NCBI RefSeq assembly: GCF_900607235.1
Contig: NZ_LR027848.1
Span: 1,105,241-1,169,240 of the forward strand
Length of the DNA: 64,000 bases
Direction of reading: 5' to 3'
Source of the DNA: Olivibacter jilunii
Lineage (GTDB): Bacteria; Bacteroidota; Bacteroidia; Sphingobacteriales; Sphingobacteriaceae
Of the stretch, positions 49,232-58,726 are shown one piece after another; the stretch's first letter is position 1; every line of letters begins with the position of its first letter. The notes under the pieces are model-generated. The model worked only from the letters and a program-made list of their open reading frames with translations, was not told the DNA's origin and did no database searches. Made by a program: the position numbers and the translations under genes.

Positions 49232-49762
49232 TTAATTATTTCTGAAAGCATATCGTTCAATACTTTTTGCGAACAGAGGAGTCTCGCTTTGATTGTGATA
49301 AATCGATACCGGCTGCCGTTGGCTTTTGAATAATTCAAATGGAATCCCTTGTTTTTCAATACTTTTTATAAATTCCTCAGTGGGTTTTGAAATAACTCGG
49401 TTCGTGAATTCGCAGGTGTTATCGTCAATCTTTTTTACGCTCATCTCCCAATGAACAAGAATGTTAATGTGTCCGCTAGGTGTAAATATGTCAGAGACGG
49501 ATTCCAATATAAGATGCGATGGCTTTGATACCTTTTCAATATAATGCTGAACCATTAGGCTTCCTCCAAGAACTTCAACATTTACAGACATCCTTTTACC
49601 GTCTGGCGACGTGGTAACACCCGAAGTAACGTGGGCAGGCGAACACGCTTGATATTCATGTTCAGGAAGCGTAAAGCACCATTCCGGAATGTTAATTTTT
49701 TCAATCGGTGCGTTGATCATAGCTGTAAAGCTTGAATCAACAATAACTTGTTCATTTTGCAT
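49232..49762 (-). CDS. SRPBCC-like protein of unknown function
   Basis: 176 residues without signal peptide or membrane segment. The opening VDSSFTAMINAPIEKINIPEWCFTLPEHEYQAC, the middle RMSVNVEVLGGSLMVQHYIEKV and the later INILVHWEMSVKKIDDNTCEFTNRVISKP suggest a START/SRPBCC-type ligand-binding fold, but the match is not strong. It is located between NMO (44 bp) and the isochorismatase-like gene (25 bp) on one strand, so it probably binds a related small molecule. Confidence 0.75.
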   Translation of the reverse strand: MQNEQVIVDSSFTAMINAPIEKINIPEWCFTLPEHEYQACSPAHVTSGVTTSPDGKRMSVNVEVLGGSLMVQHYIEKVSKPSHLILESVSDIFTPSGHINILVHWEMSVKKIDDNTCEFTNRVISKPTEEFIKSIEKQGIPFELFKSQRQPVSIYHNQSETPLFAKSIERYAFRNN

Positions 49763-49806: not shown

Positions 49807-50892
49807 TTAAGCTTTTAGCTGTTTAAGATATGCTGTTGTTTCTTTAACTATTGTTTGCATTAGCTCATTTGCTTTGGTGTGTTTTAAGATAGGAGCTATC
49901 TGGCCGCCCCAAAAGAATATCATGTCCCACTTTTCTTGTTCAATTGCGGCTTTCCGGATATGCGACATAAATTGCGTTTGCAACGGAAAGGGCAAAAAAT
50001 TCATTTCTTGAGGGATTAAGTCCTGAGCGATACGATTAATTAATCCTCGGCCTAATCTTCCGGTAAAAGCTTTCGATAGCATGGTATATCGGGCTGCATC
50101 AGAAAACAACATCTGTTTGTGAAAGGTAGTAGCATTCGATTCGTCTGTAGCCAAGAAAGCTGTTCCAATTTGCACCGCATCCGCACCGAGCGTCAACGCT
50201 GCTGCAACGCCTTTTGCGTTAGCTATACCACCAGCGGCTATAACTGGTGTTTTTACCTTCTCTTTAATAAGCTGAAGCAATACAAATGTTCCAACGGTGG
50301 ATTGCTCGGCTGATGCTAGAAACGAAGGCCGATGCCCTCCAGCTTCGAATCCTGACGCGACGATCATATCGACACCGGCGGTTTCTAAAGCGATAGCTTC
50401 ATCCAGTGTGGTTGCAGTTCCAATTGTCACAATATTTAATTTATGGCATTGTTCCAAAACAGTAGCAGAGGGGATACCGAATATAAAGCTAAATACAGGC
50501 GGACGTTGTTGCAAAATTATTTCCACCTGGTTTTCAAAACGAGTTTTGAAGGGCGCTGGTTTCTCTGGCAGGTCTATCCCTAACTCATCAAAATAAGGTT
50601 TGAATACTTGCTGCGATTGCTTAAATTGCTCATCTGACACCGTATCATCTACTGCGTCTGTATCAGATACCCACAGGTTGATATTGTATGGCTTATTAGT
50701 AGCCGCCTTTATCTGGCGGATCAATTCGTTTATCTCCTGTGGACTTAACGTGTACGCTCCATAACCGCCGAGGCCTCCTGCATTGGATACTGTTGATACC
50801 AGTTCTACAGATGACAGCTTGCCGCCAAACGGCCCTTGTAGTATTGGGTATTGTATACCCATAATTTTAGATACTTTTGTTTTATACCACAT
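49807..50892 (-). CDS. Nitronate monooxygenase-family flavoenzyme
   Basis: 361 residues folding as an FMN TIM barrel: YPILQGPFGGKLSSVELVSTVSNAGGLGGYGA at the start, the catalytic-base motif VASGFEAGGHRPSF, then TPVIAAGGIANAKGVAAALTLGADAVQIGTAFLA for phosphate binding. Class I nitronate monooxygenases oxidise propionate 3-nitronate and alkyl nitronates, and relatives reduce quinones. It lies inside the seven-gene minus-strand series, 13 bp after the NTF2-like gene. It is the best clue that the operon detoxifies nitro compounds or reactive electrophiles. Confidence 0.9.
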   Translation of the reverse strand: MWYKTKVSKIMGIQYPILQGPFGGKLSSVELVSTVSNAGGLGGYGAYTLSPQEINELIRQIKAATNKPYNINLWVSDTDAVDDTVSDEQFKQSQQVFKPYFDELGIDLPEKPAPFKTRFENQVEIILQQRPPVFSFIFGIPSATVLEQCHKLNIVTIGTATTLDEAIALETAGVDMIVASGFEAGGHRPSFLASAEQSTVGTFVLLQLIKEKVKTPVIAAGGIANAKGVAAALTLGADAVQIGTAFLATDESNATTFHKQMLFSDAARYTMLSKAFTGRLGRGLINRIAQDLIPQEMNFLPFPLQTQFMSHIRKAAIEQEKWDMIFFWGGQIAPILKHTKANELMQTIVKETTAYLKQLKA

Positions 50893-50905
50893 AACACCAT
50901 AATTA

Positions 50906-51286
50906 TTATTTGATTACATTGGTTAACATTTTATTCACGATAAGCCACTGCCCGTTAACTCGATGAAAGGACAGAAATTCATCATAATTAAAATCATACA
51001 TCTTAACGTGTAGCTTGACGACAGCAATAGAGTTAATTATATCGATTGATATAAGGGTTCCTTTAAAAGGTTTCCCAGAGTTTTTAACGCTTTGGCGGTT
51101 TTTGACACCATCTAGGTATTGTTCAAGCGTTTTGGCATAAGGTACACCATTTACATCGCCTAATACAAGTGCGTTAGGATGATATACCTTACGCAACCTG
51201 TCAACATCACCCTTGTAAATACCTTTAAGGTAAAAATCTTCTAGCGCATAGGTAATTGCCGCTAATTCGTCCCTGTTGTTATCCAT
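50906..51286 (-). CDS. NTF2/SnoaL-like protein
   Basis: 126 residues. AITYALEDFYLKGIYKGDVDRLRKVYHPNALVLGDVNG is the start of an NTF2-like or lumazine-binding-type fold, and LISIDIINSIAVVKLHVKMYDFNYDEFLSFHRVNGQWLIVNKMLTNV completes the sheet. It is cytoplasmic, possibly a hydratase, isomerase or carrier in the pathway of its neighbours. It lies 70 bp after the SDR and 13 bp before NMO. Confidence 0.82.
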   Translation of the reverse strand: MDNNRDELAAITYALEDFYLKGIYKGDVDRLRKVYHPNALVLGDVNGVPYAKTLEQYLDGVKNRQSVKNSGKPFKGTLISIDIINSIAVVKLHVKMYDFNYDEFLSFHRVNGQWLIVNKMLTNVIK

Positions 51287-51356: not shown

Positions 51357-52091
51357 TTAATTCAAGTGATGGCCAGCGGCCATACCGCCATCTACATTAA
51401 TGATAGCACCGCTAATGAAATTGCTCTTAGCAACTGTATAAACCATCTCAGCGACATCTTCTACCTCGCCTACACGATTTAGCAGGTGTAAGGTCGCACT
51501 TTCATCTGCTTTGTTTCCGTGCATCGGTGTGCGGATAGTACCGGGTGCTATGGTATTCACCCTAATGTTGTTTTTCCCAAACTCAGCTGCAAGCTGTATT
51601 GTAAGGGCATGTATTGCTCCTTTGGATGCCATTTGTGCAGAGATGGGCAGCCCGCCAAGTGCATGATTTACTAATGGTGTACCAATGTTGATCACAACGC
51701 CGTTGCGTTGTTTAAGCATTTGCGGAATAACCGCTTGGGTTGTAAAGAAAGTCCCTTTTAAATTTGTGTTTAAAAAGCGATCCAAGTACGCCTCGTCTAC
51801 TTGTAGGAAGGGTTTAGTTTCGAAGATACCAGCATTGTTTATCAATACATCCACTGAACCAAATCTGTCGAGGGCTATAGCAGCGAGTTTTTTCCCTGTT
51901 TTTCGATCACTTACATTACCTGCCATCATTGCAAGATTTTCACCTGCACCTAATTCGTGATAAATTTCCCTGAGTTTTTCAGCGGTTGATGAATTGATCA
52001 CTACATGATCGCCTTTTTCCAAAAAGTGGCGAGCTACTTCTTTACCAATGCCTGAAGAAGCACCAGTTACTATTATTGTTTGCTTTTTCAT
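51357..52091 (-). CDS. SDR-family oxidoreductase
   Basis: 244 residues. VTGASSGIGKEVARHFLEKG is the cofactor motif, INNAGIFETKPF the NNAG motif, INIGTP replaces the usual Ser-Ser region with a Gly-Thr, and the usual Tyr of YxxxK appears replaced in ISAQMASKGAIHALT, where Met/Ala precede SKG. The Lys is present but the Tyr is not obvious, which would alter catalysis and deserves checking. The C-terminus has FISGAIINVDGGMAAG. It starts 4 bp after the tautomerase stop and is co-transcribed with it. Confidence 0.88.
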   Translation of the reverse strand: MKKQTIIVTGASSGIGKEVARHFLEKGDHVVINSSTAEKLREIYHELGAGENLAMMAGNVSDRKTGKKLAAIALDRFGSVDVLINNAGIFETKPFLQVDEAYLDRFLNTNLKGTFFTTQAVIPQMLKQRNGVVINIGTPLVNHALGGLPISAQMASKGAIHALTIQLAAEFGKNNIRVNTIAPGTIRTPMHGNKADESATLHLLNRVGEVEDVAEMVYTVAKSNFISGAIINVDGGMAAGHHLN

Positions 52092-52095
52092 TTTA

Positions 52096-52314
52096 TTATT
52101 TTCTATCGGCAGTAATACCTTTTTCTCTTAAAATTGATACCTGCTCTCCGGCAAATCCCCAGTCATCCAGGTCAATTTCCTGTATCACAACATGAGTTAA
52201 TTGCGGATCTTTATTCAATATATCTGTTATTAAGGAGGTAATTCCACTAATTAACTTTTGTTTTTGTTCTCTTGTAACTCCTTCGCGAGTAACTTCGATT
52301 TTTACGTACGGCAT
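52096..52314 (-). CDS. 4-oxalocrotonate tautomerase-family enzyme
   Basis: 72 residues from MPYVKIEVTREGVTREQ; this start is chosen because it leaves Pro as residue 1 after Met removal, and that Pro is the catalytic base of the family. An upstream ATG adds eight residues and would abolish the N-terminal Pro. The C-terminal THVVIQEIDLDDWGFAGEQV is typical. Such enzymes tautomerise unsaturated keto acids or dehalogenate. It lies between YceI (16 bp) and the SDR (4 bp). Confidence 0.88.
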   Translation of the reverse strand: MPYVKIEVTREGVTREQKQKLISGITSLITDILNKDPQLTHVVIQEIDLDDWGFAGEQVSILREKGITADRK

Positions 52315-52330
52315 AATTGTAATTTTAACT

Positions 52331-52849
52331 TTAGGCAACTTTTGCAGTAACCTTTATATTCAGTTCAAACTCGTTGTAGATAAGCGTATCGCCTAGATTC
52401 TGAAAGAAATTTCCCGAACGAAATTTCATTCCGTATTTGGTGCGGTCCACTATAATCAAGCCGGTTGCGGTTAATGTATCGCCATTTACATTAACAACCG
52501 TATTAAAGCTAATGGGATGGGTAATACCTTTAATAGTTAGGTTTCCCTCAACATGACTGTCCGTAACCGATGTTATGTCTAAAATCGCCTCAGGATATTT
52601 TTCGGATGAGAAAAAATCATCAGAAGCTAGGTGACCGAAGAATTGGGCGTTAAGTGTAGGGTCGGTTACATCCAGAATTTTTATAGAATTGGTATCAATG
52701 ATAAATTTACCGCCAGTAAGTTTACCCTCATTCAATATAATTTCGCCCTCTTTAATAGAAATGGTTCCATTATGTGCGCCCGTTACTTTTTTTCCCACCC
52801 AGTCTATGTTGCTTTGTGGTGTTATAACTTTGAATTTCTGAGTTTTCAT
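52331..52849 (-). CDS. YceI-family lipocalin-like protein
   Basis: 172 residues: VITPQSNIDWVGKKVTGAHNGTISIKEGEIILNEGKLTGGKFIIDTNSI-type opening (segments read around 8-55), LASDDFFSSEKYPEAILDITSV, and the end FRSGNFFQNLGDTLIYNEFELNIKV. This matches the YceI beta-barrel that binds isoprenoid chains. There is no signal peptide, so it is probably cytoplasmic. It is the first gene of the seven-gene minus-strand series, and its promoter carries two CRP-like palindromes. Confidence 0.92.
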   Translation of the reverse strand: MKTQKFKVITPQSNIDWVGKKVTGAHNGTISIKEGEIILNEGKLTGGKFIIDTNSIKILDVTDPTLNAQFFGHLASDDFFSSEKYPEAILDITSVTDSHVEGNLTIKGITHPISFNTVVNVNGDTLTATGLIIVDRTKYGMKFRSGNFFQNLGDTLIYNEFELNIKVTAKVA

Positions 52850-52873: not shown

Positions 52874-52955
52874 CAAATTACGCTAGTATTTTAGAGTCGG
52901 AGAGGTGATCTACATCACATTTAAATAAGCCTCAGCTTTATGTGATCTAGATCAC
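52874..52955 (-). promoter_or_regulatory. YceI operon promoter with tandem CRP/FNR-type sites
   Basis: The proximal site is at 52905-52918 and the perfect palindrome GTGATCTAGATCAC at 52942-52955; centres are 37 bp apart. After a 24-bp gap from the proximal site, TAATTTG (52880-52874 on the minus strand) is the -7 candidate. There is no TTG at -33, as expected of an activator-dependent promoter. If transcription starts about 4-6 nt after TAATTTG, the proximal site centres near -42, a class II position. Confidence 0.75.
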
Positions 52956-53165
52956 TTCCGAACTTCCTCCATCGTAAGTAATCGTTGCTATCGAATGTAT
53001 TTCGTGTCCGAGGTGGACATCTATAATGAATATCAGGCTCGCCAATTAGGAGGATAGCGTGTTAAGTAATTGCCCACAAGTCGTACGCGGGTTTGTTTGA
53101 TGATTGCTGGTAGGTAGCTATGGTCTAATTCTTCACAAAGTATAGAGAAATTAGACAACAGCACT
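52956..53165. other. Region between the YceI promoter and the Crp/Fnr gene 3' end
   Basis: About 210 bp. A minus-strand frame (53033-53221) overlaps the end of the Crp/Fnr gene out of frame and resembles nothing known. No terminator was recognised. Confidence 0.35.
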
Positions 53166-53738
53166 TTAGGTATGGTATAGTCGGCTAAGCGTTTCTCTTG
53201 AGACTCCCAAGTAAGCTGCAATCAGGTTTTTTGGAACGGTATTATACAGCTCAGGATATAATTTTAAAAGCTCTTCATACCTATACTTTACGTTATTATT
53301 CATAAAAGAGAGCAGCCTATTCTGGGTGGCAACATAACCTCTATTCGTTCTCCACCTAAAAAAATGTCCTACTTGATGTAGCTCAGCACATAATTTCTCC
53401 CGGTCTTCATCGCTAAGACAAAGCACTTCTGCATCAGTAATGCAATCTACGTTAATGGTAGCGCTAGTTTGGTTATATAGTGCATTGTAATCCGAAGTCC
53501 ACCAGGTAGGCATGGCAAACTGAAGAATGAACATTTTCAGATCATCGTTTACATAGAACGATTTTAAGCAACCCGAAACCACAAAATATTCACAGTCAAC
53601 AACATCGCCTTGAGTAATAATAGCCTGTCCTTTTTTAAAGATTAGTTTTTTAAAATGCGAGAAGAAATATTCGAACTGCTCATCTGATAACGCAGCTAAC
53701 TTAGAGACATGAGCTTTTAAAATTTCTTTAGCTTCCAT
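53166..53738 (-). CDS. Crp/Fnr-family regulator, cysteine-rich paralogue A
   Basis: 190 residues. The beta-roll sensor domain includes FKKGQAIITQGDVVDCEYFVVSGCLKSFYVND and FAMPTWWTSDYNALYN; the C-terminal helix-turn-helix is IAAYLGVSRETLSRLYH. Cysteines lie at 49, 57, 99, 107 and 117, exactly as in the divergent paralogue at 54273-54848, and no cAMP-contact Arg is evident. There is no N-terminal Fe-S cysteine cluster as in Fnr. It is transcribed towards the YceI operon, which has two matching palindromes upstream, so it is a candidate activator of that operon. The effector is unknown; thiol chemistry is a hypothesis. Confidence 0.93.
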   Translation of the reverse strand: MEAKEILKAHVSKLAALSDEQFEYFFSHFKKLIFKKGQAIITQGDVVDCEYFVVSGCLKSFYVNDDLKMFILQFAMPTWWTSDYNALYNQTSATINVDCITDAEVLCLSDEDREKLCAELHQVGHFFRWRTNRGYVATQNRLLSFMNNNVKYRYEELLKLYPELYNTVPKNLIAAYLGVSRETLSRLYHT

Positions 53739-53851
53739 AAAGGGTTTAACTAATATATTGATAATAGGTGAAAATAAGAATTCTTTTGTCGTTTGCCTCA
53801 GGTTTCAGTGTTTATAATACTTAACTGGGTTTGTGTGGCCAGCCTCCAAAG

Positions 53852-54101
53852 TTAAGTGTCACTTTTCAAATAATGAAGTGTCACATATCCGGATTTAAAA
53901 AATTTTTTAGCAACCAGCTTTAAATTGAGGTTTTCCTGGAGGCTGCCGGCATTTAGCAATGAGCGCCCTCTTCCTACAATGACCGGGCGGACAACCAAAT
54001 TAATTCATCAATAAGCCTGCAGTTATCAACTCCGGAAGTAGGCTAACGGAGTCAACAAGGATTTTTTTACCTGGTTGCTGTTTGAGTTTCAGAAGTTCTT
54101 C
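53852..54101 (-). pseudogene. Remnant of a dihydrofolate-reductase-family (RibD C-terminal-like) gene
   Basis: Three consecutive minus-strand segments in different frames read as the C-terminal half of a DHFR-like protein. First comes EELLKLKQQPGKKILVDSVS and LLPELITAGL, then LIDELIW, then VVRPVIVGRGRSLLNAG continuing to VAKKFFKSGYVTLHYLKSDT and a stop at 53852. Two single-base indels (around 54010-54025) separate the frames, and a stop codon at 54102-54104 closes the 5' side. The order of motifs (VD-strand, AGLIDEL, hPVIVGxGxxL, KFKSGxVxLHY) is that of the DHFR-family proteins common in this phylum. No start or N-terminal half is present. Confidence 0.7.
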
Positions 54102-54104
54102 TCA

Positions 54105-54272
54105 GGATTGCTACGAACAATTCGCATATATCCAAAACTTTTGTAAAAAATTAATAAATTCGGAGATTGCTGTATAACTGTTTATACTTACCATTGCTTG
54201 TTGTTAGGTAACATAGTGCTGTAGGCAATAGCATCATCAAGACTTACCTGTTAATAAGACAAATACATTTGC
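54105..54272. other. Promoter region of Crp/Fnr paralogue B with a further coding trace
   Basis: A minus-strand frame ending at about 54089 reads FYKSFGYMRIVRSNPEKNF, reminiscent of a GNAT acetyltransferase C-terminus, possibly another remnant. The rest must hold the promoter of the regulator gene; no clean consensus was found. Confidence 0.3.
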
Positions 54273-54848
54273 ATGACGCCATACGAAATGCTCCGGCAAC
54301 ATATCCATAAAACTATTCAGTTGAGTGACGAACAGTTTGATTATTTTTTTTCTTTCTTCCAGCCAGTTTCTTTCAAAAAAGGAGAACAGCTCATTCATGT
54401 AGGAGACGAGGTTGATTGCGAATATTTCGTGTTAAGTGGCTGCTTGAAGACGTTTTTCGTAAATGACGAACAAAAAATGCACATTTTGCAATTTGCCATG
54501 CGAACTTGGTGGGCATCCGACTATAAAGCTTTGTACAATAATGAAAGAGCTACTGTAAACGTTGACTGCGTTGCGGATGCAGAAACGCTTTGTCTCCACA
54601 GTGAAGAGAGGGAAAAGGCTTGTAAAGAAATTCGCGAAATTGAAACTTTTCTAAGATGGCGTTCCAATAAAGGTTATATCAGTTTGCAAAAAAGAATTTT
54701 ATCGCTATTAAATAACGATGCCCGTAGTCGGTACGAGGAACTAATGCACCAATATCCTGAATTGTACAATCTTGTTCCGAAACATTTGATCGCAGCATAT
54801 TTGGGAGTTTCAAGAGAAACGCTCAGCAGACTTTACCATAGTAAATGA
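54273..54848 (+). CDS. Crp/Fnr-family regulator, cysteine-rich paralogue B
   Basis: 191 residues, close paralogue of the divergent gene at 53166-53738: FKKGEQLIHVGDEVDCEYFVLSGCLKTFFVND, WWASDYKALYN, and HTH IAAYLGVSRETLSRLYH, which is identical at the DNA-recognition helix. The five cysteines (49, 57, 99, 107, 117) are conserved. An identical recognition helix implies both regulators read the same operator. It is followed two bases after its stop codon by a GTGA-N6-TCAC site and then by the promoter of the DJ-1/PfpI-family gene, which it probably controls. Confidence 0.93.
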   Translation: MTPYEMLRQHIHKTIQLSDEQFDYFFSFFQPVSFKKGEQLIHVGDEVDCEYFVLSGCLKTFFVNDEQKMHILQFAMRTWWASDYKALYNNERATVNVDCVADAETLCLHSEEREKACKEIREIETFLRWRSNKGYISLQKRILSLLNNDARSRYEELMHQYPELYNLVPKHLIAAYLGVSRETLSRLYHSK

Positions 54849-54849
54849 T

Positions 54850-54931
54850 GTGACCTAGCTCACTAAAAATAGCGGCTTTCTAAAATGTGATCTATATCAC
54901 CTAATGATGCTGTTTTTTATCCGCTACTTTG
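54850..54931 (+). promoter_or_regulatory. PfpI-family gene promoter with tandem CRP/FNR-type sites
   Basis: GTGACCTAGCTCAC (54850-54863) and GTGATCTATATCAC (54887-54900) have centres 37 bp apart. A 24-bp gap leads to TACTTTG (54925-54931). No -33 TTG is present. Both distances equal those at the YceI promoter exactly. The start codon is 34 bp after TACTTTG. Confidence 0.75.
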
Positions 54932-54965: not shown

Positions 54966-55664
54966 ATGGATAAAGTAATTTTTAAAGTACTAATTGTACT
55001 TACCTCTCACGATCAACTGGGAGATACCGGTGAAAAAACAGGTTTTTGGGTGGAAGAGTTTGCCGCTCCTTATTACGTTTTGGCCGATGCAGGCGTAGAG
55101 GTCACGATCGCATCACCCGAAGGCGGACAACCTCCGATAGATCCTAAAAGTGCACTTCCTGATTTCCAAACGGAAGCCACTAAACGTTTTGATGCAGACA
55201 AGGCCCTGCAGGAAAAATTGGCACATAGCATTCCATTAAGTGATGTGAATGAAAAAGATTACGATGCGGTATTCTATCCGGGAGGCCACGGACCGCTTTG
55301 GGATTTAACCAACGATGCGCGTTCCATTAAACTGATCGAAGCGTTTTGGAAAGAAGGTAAGCCGGTTGCTGCCGTTTGTCATGCGCCCGGCGTATTACGG
55401 TTTGTGAAAGATGCAGAGGGAAATCCCCTGGTAAAAGGAAAAAAAGTTACCGGTTTTTCCAACACTGAAGAAGAAGCGGTTCAATTAACAGATGTTGTTC
55501 CTTATTTGGTGGAAGATGAGTTAAAAAAACTTGGTGGAAACTATAGTAAAACGGAGGACTGGAAGAGCTACTCTGTGCAGGATGGGAATCTAATTACCGG
55601 ACAAAACCCGGCGTCTTCAGAAGAAGCAGCTAAAAAGCTGCTTGATTTACTAAGAAAAAGCTAG
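54966..55664 (+). CDS. DJ-1/PfpI-family protein (Hsp31/glyoxalase III-like)
   Basis: 232 residues of the class I glutamine-amidotransferase-like fold. The nucleophile elbow AAVCHAPG puts Cys at 138 with His 139 next to it, and Glu 30/31 (FWVEEFAAPY) is the conserved acid near the thiol. YPGGHGPLWDL is the oxyanion region. The longer insert and VCHAP motif resemble Hsp31-type chaperone/glyoxalase III proteins, which detoxify methylglyoxal or repair glycated protein. Its promoter has the tandem CRP-like sites shared with the YceI operon, so both belong to one stress regulon by inference. Confidence 0.9.
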   Translation: MDKVIFKVLIVLTSHDQLGDTGEKTGFWVEEFAAPYYVLADAGVEVTIASPEGGQPPIDPKSALPDFQTEATKRFDADKALQEKLAHSIPLSDVNEKDYDAVFYPGGHGPLWDLTNDARSIKLIEAFWKEGKPVAAVCHAPGVLRFVKDAEGNPLVKGKKVTGFSNTEEEAVQLTDVVPYLVEDELKKLGGNYSKTEDWKSYSVQDGNLITGQNPASSEEAAKKLLDLLRKS

Positions 55665-56790: not shown

Positions 56791-58020
56791 TTATTGCAAA
56801 TTTAATTGTTCCAGCAATTTCTCAGCTGTGGCCTGAATTGCGGGCACGGCAACTGAGTTTCCGAATTGCCTATAAGCCTGCACATCGGATACGCAGATTC
56901 TGTACGTGTCCGGAAAACCCTGCAAACGAGCCCACTCGCGAGGAGTCATTTTCCGGATTCCCTCTCGGTTCACTTCTCCTTTTATTTTTGTAACCGGTGT
57001 GAAATTCGTTAGTCTATTATCGATTATTAAATTTCGTTCCCTTCCCATGCCTCCACAAACAACCGCATTGGCAATGCCATCATTTGGTATGATTTCAAAT
57101 CCGAAGCCATTACCCTTACTTTCATGCCTGGCTTTATGTTCTTTTAACGTCTTTAAGTATTGCGTTGACAAGTAATATTTCACGGAGACTTCCTCTTCTT
57201 CAAAAATATCCTCGATGGCTACCGGTTCATCCAAGGGTTCAGGATATTCAAAGCGATCTATCCCCAAATCTTTGCGGTAACCCACAATAAAAATGCGTTC
57301 CCTGTTCTGTGGCACTCCGAAATTTTTGGCATTGACGATCTCCGGATCCGGAACAAAATAGTTTAGGTCATTCCGCAACACGTTCAATATCGTGGTTAAA
57401 GTGCGCCCCTTATCGTGATTTCTAAGTCCTTTTACATTTTCCAAAAAGAAGGCCTTCGGTTGATGTCGCTTGATAATCTCCGCAACATCAAAAAAAAGCG
57501 TTCCACGCGTATCTTCAAAACCACCCCTTTTTCCGGCAATGGAGAAAGCCTGGCAAGGAAATCCTGCACATAAAACATCAAATTGCTTTGGGATAAAGGC
57601 TTTTGTTGATTCTTTGGTGATATCTCCAAAAGGCACTTCCGCAAAGTTAGCTTCATAGGTTCTTTTGGCACTCTCGTTCCACTCGCTGGTGAACACGCAT
57701 TTTCCTCCAAGATTCTGACAAGCCAATCGAAATCCTCCAATCCCCGCAAAAAGATCTATAAATGTGAATTTTGGTCTGTCAGGAGAGGGGAAAGGAATAT
57801 CCCACTTGATCGACTTAAGGTGCTGCATGGATATATCTCCGAATTCGGGGACATTCCGTTGAAGTTCTTCGTAAAAACTGTGCGCATATTGCTCATATGT
57901 CGCGCTCGATTCTAGATCCTGATTTTGCAAATAGTGGGTTAGGGTGGCAACATTGTCCGCGGAGCCATTTAATCTGTTAACACGCAAATGTTTCCTTATA
58001 TCAGAATAGCGTAGTTTCAT
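56791..58020 (-). CDS. DNA (cytosine-5) methyltransferase
   Basis: 409 residues. Motif I is FIDLFAGIGG (87-96), motif IV GFPCQAFS with catalytic Cys156, motif VI ENV (194-196), motif VIII QNRERIF (Q238-R240-x-R242), motif IX region MTPREWARLQGFPD and motif X FGNSVAVPAI. It would methylate C5 of cytosine in an unknown target, read by the variable region between motifs VIII and IX (about 260-345). The first 83 residues are an extra N-terminal segment. No restriction endonuclease or Vsr gene lies beside it, so it looks like an orphan or solitary enzyme. Confidence 0.93.
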   Translation of the reverse strand: MKLRYSDIRKHLRVNRLNGSADNVATLTHYLQNQDLESSATYEQYAHSFYEELQRNVPEFGDISMQHLKSIKWDIPFPSPDRPKFTFIDLFAGIGGFRLACQNLGGKCVFTSEWNESAKRTYEANFAEVPFGDITKESTKAFIPKQFDVLCAGFPCQAFSIAGKRGGFEDTRGTLFFDVAEIIKRHQPKAFFLENVKGLRNHDKGRTLTTILNVLRNDLNYFVPDPEIVNAKNFGVPQNRERIFIVGYRKDLGIDRFEYPEPLDEPVAIEDIFEEEEVSVKYYLSTQYLKTLKEHKARHESKGNGFGFEIIPNDGIANAVVCGGMGRERNLIIDNRLTNFTPVTKIKGEVNREGIRKMTPREWARLQGFPDTYRICVSDVQAYRQFGNSVAVPAIQATAEKLLEQLNLQ

Positions 58021-58171: not shown

Positions 58172-58726
58172 TTACATCAAGTGGATAAGTAAAGAAGATT
58201 TTTCTTCAATCTCAGCTTTTATTCTCGCAACACTTTGTTCGATGGATAGATCTGTTGTATCAATGACATTTGATTCATAGTGCTCTAAGTTGTTAAATTG
58301 CTCCCACATCTTTTCCACCAACTCCGTGTTCGTTTCCTCGTCTAATTTGGAACGACTGATTGCCCGTTTCATCGTTTCTTCTTTTGTCGCTCTTAGAATA
58401 ATGTAATGTACTTCATAATTATCCTGTACCGCTTGTAACCACGGGCCTAAGAACCACGGGCCAACAATCCCATCAATAACTACATCAAATCCACCACGTG
58501 CAAAACGTTTTGCAGCTTCCAAAAAGGCTTCAATAACAATTAAGTTCTGTTCCTGTGATTCCGGTAGAAATGGCGGTATTGCCCCCTTGCAGATATAGTG
58601 ATAGAAGTCATCGGTGTGCAGGTGTACCGACTTTGATAAAGTAGATTCCTTAGCCACTATGGATGCCGTTGTACTTTTACCTGTCCCCGGCGAACCGGTA
58701 ATTATGATCATTCTACCTTGTTTCAT
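58172..58726 (-). CDS. P-loop kinase-like ATPase
   Basis: 184 residues. Walker A ITGSPGTGKSTTA (9-21); VVIDGIVGPWFLGPW holds the acidic strand; LRATKEETMKRAISR gives the Arg-rich lid. It resembles AAA_33-type small kinases such as gluconate kinase or chloramphenicol phosphotransferase-like proteins. HLHTDDFYHYI (about 36-46) is the usual substrate-side DD motif. Its substrate is unknown. It lies 151 bp upstream of the methyltransferase on the same strand. Confidence 0.85.
   Translation of the reverse strand: MKQGRMIIITGSPGTGKSTTASIVAKESTLSKSVHLHTDDFYHYICKGAIPPFLPESQEQNLIVIEAFLEAAKRFARGGFDVVIDGIVGPWFLGPWLQAVQDNYEVHYIILRATKEETMKRAISRSKLDEETNTELVEKMWEQFNNLEHYESNVIDTTDLSIEQSVARIKAEIEEKSSLLIHLM

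Follow-up and report, generated by a model that had tools for sequence, protein, structure and literature searches.

Two Crp/Fnr-type regulator genes of Olivibacter jilunii adjoin promoters with paired CRP-like operators of conserved geometry

A stretch of 64,000 nucleotides from Olivibacter jilunii (contig NZ_LR027848.1, positions 1,105,241 to 1,169,240; hereafter the window) contains two regulator-operator-target modules, which are oriented away from each other. Each has a gene for a Crp/Fnr-type regulator with a PF00027 domain. R1, a protein of 190 amino acids with a CRP-like fold, is encoded on the minus strand [53166..53738], while R2, which has 191 amino acids and is 63% identical to R1, is encoded on the plus strand [54273..54848]. 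In the R1 module, an exact site search located a distal operator, GTGATCTAGATCAC [52942..52955, minus strand], and a proximal operator that reads GTGATGTAGATCAC on the minus strand [52905..52918]. A TAATTTG box [52874..52880, minus strand], found by a pattern search, lies 24 base pairs (bp) from the proximal operator and is followed by the first putative target gene, which encodes a YceI-like protein [52331..52849, minus strand; PF04264]. This operator pair begins 210 bp past the stop codon of R1, and the YceI gene then heads a row of minus-strand genes. In the R2 module, the same searches on the plus strand gave the distal operator GTGACCTAGCTCAC [54850..54863], one base past the R2 stop codon, the proximal operator GTGATCTATATCAC [54887..54900], and a TACTTTG box [54925..54931] that is again 24 bp from the proximal operator. 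The putative target gene of R2 encodes a DJ-1/PfpI-family protein [54966..55664, plus strand; PF01965].

The two promoters share one layout. Read in the direction of the genes, it consists of a 14-bp site, 23 bp, a second 14-bp site, 24 bp, and TAATTTG (YceI) or TACTTTG (PfpI). The sites, of the form GTGA-N6-TCAC, start at 52905, 52942, 54850 and 54887, and in both pairs their centres are 37 bp apart, which is about 3.5 turns of the helix. The original prediction, made from the letters of the window, had described exactly this arrangement, and it had also noted the lack of a TTG at -33, which is indeed missing at the expected place in both promoters. The window has five exact GTGA-N6-TCAC sites, where 0.55 are expected, and none of 100 shuffled sequences reached five. 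In the 6.7 Mb genome, the two window promoters are the only exact pairs with a spacing of 37 bp, and they are also the only places with GTGA-N6-TCAC-N24-TAnTTTG (reversed control pattern, none). Base composition predicts about 0.0013 pairs per genome at one given spacing. The site search of the window found no exact site between R1 and R2, and autoregulation through the same site was rejected on this ground.

The sequences between the sites had been described as unrelated, a claim that holds for the middle 11 bp only. Over the whole 23-bp spacer, the two window promoters share the base at 14 of 23 positions (7.1 on average after shuffling, P ~0.002), because AT-rich arms are common to both spacers. 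Among 30 non-redundant promoters with 37-bp spacing, the middle 11 bp are near random, with a mean pairwise identity of 30%, and the arms are informative, with 1.16-1.28 bits at the four positions that follow the distal site and 1.25-1.72 bits at the three that precede the proximal site. The whole-operator consensus is close to AAATGTGAtSTASrTCACATAAA. The 24 bp past the proximal site are unrelated between the two window promoters (4 of 24 positions agree).

The assignment of R1 and R2 to the Crp/Fnr family is based on both sequence and predicted structure. The N-terminal cyclic nucleotide-type domain PF00027 is matched with E-values of 5.6e-10 in R1 and 5e-08 in R2; the Pfam search gave no helix-turn-helix family above the cut-off. 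The AlphaFold model of R1, with a predicted local distance difference test (pLDDT) of 88.6, has a CRP-like fold with a C-terminal helix-turn-helix, and Foldseek matched it to CRP, GlxR and FNR with template modeling (TM) scores, by query length, of up to 0.88. The recognition helices of the two regulators are identical, as predicted, with IAAYLGVSRETLSRLYH in both. The helix GVSRETLSR aligns with GCSRETVGR of the CRP chains 4i02 and 6dt4. In CRP, the R-E---R residues read the GTGA half-site, and they are present here; the half-site of E. coli CRP is GTGA/TCAC, as in the window operators. The motif SRETLSR is invariant in 53 of 53 aligned proteins, partly by selection, as YLGVSRETL was one of the two patterns used to scan for them. 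The pocket of CRP that binds cyclic AMP (cAMP) includes G71, E72, R82 and S83. The aligned residues of R1 are S82, D83, A93 and T94, of which D83 and A93 occur in 53 of 53 proteins. The pocket residues thus differ, and cyclic AMP is not favoured as the signal. The cysteines C117, C99 and C57 are found in 53, 52 and 50 of the 53 proteins, respectively.

A site-only search of 301 genomes of the family, which ignored the regulator, was made for two exact sites at any centre spacing of 22-52 bp. The paired-site pattern was matched in 45 genomes, versus 9 for the reversed control pattern. The 50 distinct pairs are spaced by 37 bp (31 pairs), 36 bp (4), 38 bp (4), 47 bp (3) and 23 bp (2), with one pair each at 22, 26, 27, 29, 34 and 52 bp; spacings of 36-38 bp make up 39 of the 50. 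At these spacings, TTTG is found at an offset of 27 bp on one side in 37 of 39 pairs, versus 4 of 11 at other spacings, and a regulator homologue of at least 40% identity is found in the surrounding 3-10 kb in 36 of 39, versus 3 of 11. In a separate protein search, 49 of the 301 genomes proved to have the regulator (E 1e-75 or better). It is carried by all 34 genomes that have a 36-38 bp pair (one copy with an internal stop; Fisher P ~2e-33 against the overall 49 of 301) and by 2 of the 11 genomes whose pairs all have other spacings, while no 36-38 bp pair occurs in the 252 genomes without it. A site with TTTG at 27 lies inside 29 of the 31 regulator loci examined; in the other two, L207 and L229, the pairs are about 2 kb or more away (compare L114, L137 and L138). 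The original prediction had held that loss of the spacing in close relatives would count against it, and the opposite was found: a spacing of 36-38 bp dominates, and the TTTG offset is constant where the regulator adjoins the promoter. The anatomy of the modules, their conservation and the clade-specific linkage of regulator and operator are direct observations.

The 11 pairs with other spacings are a mixture. A Crp/Fnr homologue is next to five of them: both 23-bp pairs, one of the 47-bp pairs, the 22-bp pair of L027 and the 29-bp pair of L024. The other six (26, 27, 34, 47, 47 and 52 bp), which have no Crp/Fnr homologue at E 1e-3 in the surrounding stretch, look like chance. The homologues in L024 [901-1551] and L027 [1501-2134] are remote, with 25-35% identity, and end just before the 29-bp and the 22-bp exact pair, respectively. 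L024 comes from a congener; it too has TTTG at offset 27, and its Crp-like helix-turn-helix falls below the Pfam cut-off.

The search that started from the regulator used the best 80 loci of at least 582 relatives from named Bacteroidota genomes, which include Mucilaginibacter, Pedobacter, Flavobacterium, Chitinophaga, Dyadobacter, Niastella, Chryseolinea and other genera; this set and the set of 301 genomes overlap in species. In all 80 loci, an exact site is followed by TTTG at precisely 27 bp. On 266 exact-site strands, TTTG is at offset 27 in 88 cases and at any other offset from 0 to 52 in at most 12. A second site, with up to one mismatch in the pair, is present in 33 of the 80 loci, and exact pairs are spaced by 37 bp (25), 36 bp (2), 38 bp (2) and 27 bp (2), with one each at 23, 26, 47 and 60 bp. 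Spacings of 26-27, 37 and 47 bp are about one helical turn apart, so the half-turn phase is mostly kept in the regulator clade. A hidden second distal site in the single-site loci was rejected, as the sequence beyond the flank of the proximal site carries almost no upstream signal in 31 non-redundant single promoters. A quick tree of the regulators (84 rows) requires seven changes of the tandem state, and 33 of the 35 tandem rows, including R1 and R2, are in one clade of 38 with 98% support in the Shimodaira-Hasegawa-like approximate likelihood ratio test (SH-aLRT). The rows from Flavobacterium and Dyadobacter are all single-site. The tree has long branches for R2, L149 and L153 and omits R3 (described below); R2 stands beside Pedobacter westerhofensis on its long branch, and its exact place is unsure. 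The distal site is not universal and we read it as a lineage-specific addition, and the geometry common to both window promoters is best explained by inheritance along with the regulator clade.

Other Crp/Fnr genes of the same genome served as a control. Searching the genome with R1 gave 25 Crp/Fnr matches, of which 22 were resolved (L154 was not recovered by tblastn, and L147 and L166 gave a neighbouring paralogue again). The 250 bp past the stop codon hold an exact site for R1, R3 and R4, and for none of the other 19; the sites of R2 were seen directly. R3 (L148, C2:493235), a third relative that is 54% identical, leads to a YceI paralogue (PF04264) and has a different architecture. In R3 and ten relatives examined in the family, 10 of 11 loci have a distal site at -4 to +26 bp from the end of the stop codon; eight of these sites are exact, and two have one mismatch. 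In all ten, the proximal site is 23 bp on and has the right half TCCT instead of TCAC, and in nine of the ten TTTG is one base closer, at offset 26. The eleventh, the R3-type relative L180, has no site at its locus, and L010 and L122 have exact 23-bp pairs with offset 27. With 37 bp in the clade of R1 and R2 and 23 bp in the relatives of R3, the spacing goes with the regulator clade. R4 (L149, C2:354567), which is 42% identical, has a single site 21 bp past its stop codon, with TTTG one base closer than usual, and the gene after it is RidA-like (PF01042).

The TAnTTTG box is one base shorter than the sigma-A box TAnnTTTG. From 120 promoters chosen because they have an exact site and TTTG at 27, a set of 80 was kept at <75% identity; it overlaps with the 80 loci above and is not the same. 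The canonical TAnnTTTG is present in 1 of these 80 and TAnTTTG in 34, while a single one has TTG at the -33 place. Over 183 ordinary upstream regions of the O. jilunii genome, TAnnTTTG is enriched 3.75-fold over shuffles, TTG plus TAnnTTTG 10.8-fold (13 regions), and TAnTTTG 1.8-fold. The window promoters differ from the Bacteroidota sigma-A type, which has TAnnTTTG with a TTG near -33. According to start-site mapping in Flavobacterium psychrophilum, TAnnTTTG occupies -12 to -5, and a rarer box that is one base shorter, TAnnTTGY, stands at the same place (PMC9723704). If the window boxes sit as mapped there, with the final G at -5, the proximal operator would be centred at -42.5 and the distal one at -79.5 (PMC9723704). 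The proximal site had been proposed to lie near -42, a class II position, and the placement predicted from the box agrees with this: it is close to -41.5, in place of the upstream element. A weak box combined with an activator site that replaces the -33 element is what dependence on an activator predicts.

The arrangement is real and conserved, and it looks functional. We consider it probable that R1 and R2 are parts of dedicated, locally acting class II-like activator modules, each composed of the regulator, its operator or operators, and the YceI or PfpI operon. In this proposal, each regulator would bind as a dimer to the operator(s) downstream of its own gene, R1 switching on the genes for YceI, tautomerase, short-chain dehydrogenase (SDR), PF12893 protein and nitronate monooxygenase, and R2 switching on PfpI. 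The proximal dimer, near -42.5, would take the place of the -33 element and recruit RNA polymerase to the non-canonical TAnTTTG box. The distal dimer, 37 bp (about 3.5 turns) upstream and near -79.5, may be an accessory that strengthens or sharpens activation; this role is the least certain part of the proposal. Operator binding, the direction of regulation, the start sites and the signal are all predicted from sequence.

Several points weigh against this proposal. The paralogues L153 and L159 of the same genome carry SRETLSR and yet have no such site, so the operator cannot be predicted from the recognition helix alone. In the genome, GTGA-N6-TCAC followed by TTTG at 27 is no commoner than the reversed control pattern (three places each), and one such site is thus unremarkable alone. 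In the family, the pairs L117 and L120 lack both TTTG and a regulator in the 6 kb examined, and the pair L115 has TTTG but no regulator in 6 kb. The distal site must be dispensable somewhere, as 47 of the 80 related loci are single-site, and a spacing of 3.5 turns is unlike the in-phase tandem CRP sites of E. coli and leaves the distal role unexplained. Within the genus, neither regulator is found at E 1e-60 in three of the four other genomes. An operator centred at -42.5 might suit a repressor as well. Finally, a -33 motif was reportedly not found in F. johnsoniae, and the -33 part is not general in the phylum (PMC7366714); because of this, the missing -33 element alone proves little.

Local repression, in which tandem dimers would block RNA polymerase until an inducing signal releases R1 or R2, is unlikely in our judgement. 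The proximal site does cover the -33 region, and regulators that adjoin their targets are often repressors. However, the site leaves the -7 box uncovered, and the promoters look weak alone, since the TTG at -33 and the canonical box are each missing in 79 of 80; a repressor, moreover, would have little need of a TTTG whose offset is the same in all 80 loci. The distal site might instead serve the adjoining regulator gene, as a roadblock to read-through or for autoregulation, rather than the target promoter. In 24 of the 36 pairs with 36-38 bp spacing and a regulator, the pair indeed lies 2-19 bp from the point where the alignment with the regulator ends, but the other 12 are 0.2-4.4 kb off and still spaced by 36-38 bp (among them L008, L017, L020, L134, L136 and L138), and the YceI pair of the window starts 210 bp from R1, so we regard this function as improbable.

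A different, global CRP-like protein could bind the sites, their nearness to R1 and R2 being incidental. The sites are near the E. coli CRP consensus, and the SRETLSR of L153 and L159 would fit such a protein as well. Against it stand the genome, which has only three GTGA-N6-TCAC-N27-TTTG places, two of them in the window, and the family, in which 36-38 bp pairs are confined to genomes with the regulator (0 of 252 without it). The site counts, the control with the paralogues and the family counts rule out a global CRP as the main explanation, and we give it very little weight. That the two promoters match by chance has nothing in its favour; the expected number of pairs per genome, the conserved geometry and the genome-wide and family-wide counts rule it out for practical purposes. 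A dedicated sigma factor at these promoters is conceivable. The one-base-shorter box TAnnTTGY is that of motif SM5 of F. psychrophilum, which TACTTTGT and TAATTTGT fit; in that study, SM4-6 are most likely under alternative sigma factors, and SM5 is tied to lipopolysaccharide (LPS), amino-acid scavenging and gliding genes (PMC9723704). The words crp and fnr are absent from the main text of the paper (PMC9723704).

The proposed modules resemble the class II CRP promoters of E. coli, with a site near -41.5, in the R-E---R residues of the helix and in a proximal site that replaces an upstream promoter element. They differ in that the residues of the cAMP pocket are not kept, the genome has few sites instead of a global regulon, and the box is of the Bacteroidota -7 type and not a -10 element. 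The best match among solved structures is 3dn7, a cyclic nucleotide binding regulatory protein of Cytophaga hutchinsonii (E 2e-35, nearly the whole length), in which the recognition helix is GFTPEYLSE versus GVSRETLSR here. Another relative in kind is BT4338 (Cur) of Bacteroides thetaiotaomicron, which we take to belong to the CRP family. BT4338 acts as an activator through a palindrome that precedes a putative -7 box (PMC6989115). Its proposed motif is wwwTATGTTnTAnAACATAwww and it controls carbohydrate use widely; the operators described here are different (PMC6989115). E. coli class III promoters are likewise preceded by more than one CRP-type site. In E. coli the motifs are placed at -41.5 for class II, -61.5 for class I and -93.5 for class III (PMC5957442), from which we compute 52 bp, or about 5 turns, for the pair -41.5/-93.5, versus 37 bp and about 3.5 turns here. 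Among the papers listed by searches of the open-licence literature, none describes a regulator-YceI or regulator-PfpI module. CRP-type activators, class II placement and tandem sites are known in kind; the combination, the clade-bound spacing and the box make this a new form of them.

A wider generalization is possible, although we hold it to be doubtful. Bacteroidota may have a class of activator-only promoters, at which a dedicated Crp/Fnr activator would replace the -33 contact of sigma-A at a box that is one base shorter. A second dimer, at a spacing fixed by clade (37 bp, at a half-turn, for R1 and R2; 23 bp with TCCT for R3; 22 or 29 bp for remoter Crp homologues), would then act by bending or wrapping of DNA and not by in-phase contact with the C-terminal domain of the alpha subunit (alpha-CTD).

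The minus-strand row headed by YceI forms a putative operon. It continues with genes for a tautomerase [52096..52338; PF01361], an SDR [51357..52091; PF00106], a putative lumazine-binding protein [50906..51286; PF12893] and a nitronate monooxygenase [49807..50892; PF03060], all on the minus strand. Just past the last of these, on the same strand, is a gene for a protein of 176 amino acids [49232-49762] without a Pfam match. The gap between R1 and R2 [53739-54272] consists of broken reading frames, among which the minus-strand piece INLVVRPVIVGRGRSLL has, by eye, the look of a decayed remnant of a dihydrofolate reductase or RibD-type protein. The same gap has two direct copies of AGTGTCAC, 22 bp apart, at 53855 and 53877, a sequence that is close to an operator half-site. 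Further along the window, a small kinase of AAA/zeta-toxin/CPT-like type [58172-58726] adjoins a C-5 cytosine methylase [56791-58020].

Related promoters lead to similar genes. Behind the 88 promoters with TTTG at 27, the first gene (the first ATG frame of at least 70 amino acids within 300 bases) encodes YceI (70 cases), a PF12893 protein (7), nitronate monooxygenase (4), SDR (4), tautomerase (2), and ABM monooxygenase or alpha/beta hydrolase (1 each); these are 89 matches in 88 proteins, at least one of which matches two families. By the same rule, the 37 tandem promoters found in the family lead to YceI (19), DJ-1/PfpI (10), ABM monooxygenase (3), and one each to SDR, OsmC, phosphoenolpyruvate (PEP) mutase, alpha/beta hydrolase and an AraC regulator. 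With DJ-1/PfpI after 10 of the 37, the R2-PfpI module is itself conserved. Such a regulator is present in one of four other genomes of the genus, and the PfpI promoter of this congener has a 36-bp spacing with one mismatch in the distal site, its PfpI being 75% identical. The target genes belong to families capable of handling quinones, aldehydes and peroxides, and they suggest electrophile, quinone or oxidative stress as the signal. A cysteine-based electrophile sensor is plausible, as we infer from these features.

The action of activators with the unusual sigma-A RNA polymerase of Bacteroidota has been little studied, as far as the literature searched shows. The module described here is compact, occurs in many genera and in two copies in one genome, and has a rigid, readable geometry. 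Its natural variants include single sites, pairs at 23, 26-27, 36-38 and 47 bp, and more than one type of box, and it makes the placement of the activator, the half-turn spacing and the length of the box directly testable. It also predicts DNA targets for a large family of unnamed regulators, and its target genes tie the poorly understood YceI, PfpI, ABM-type monooxygenases and OsmC into one likely stress response.

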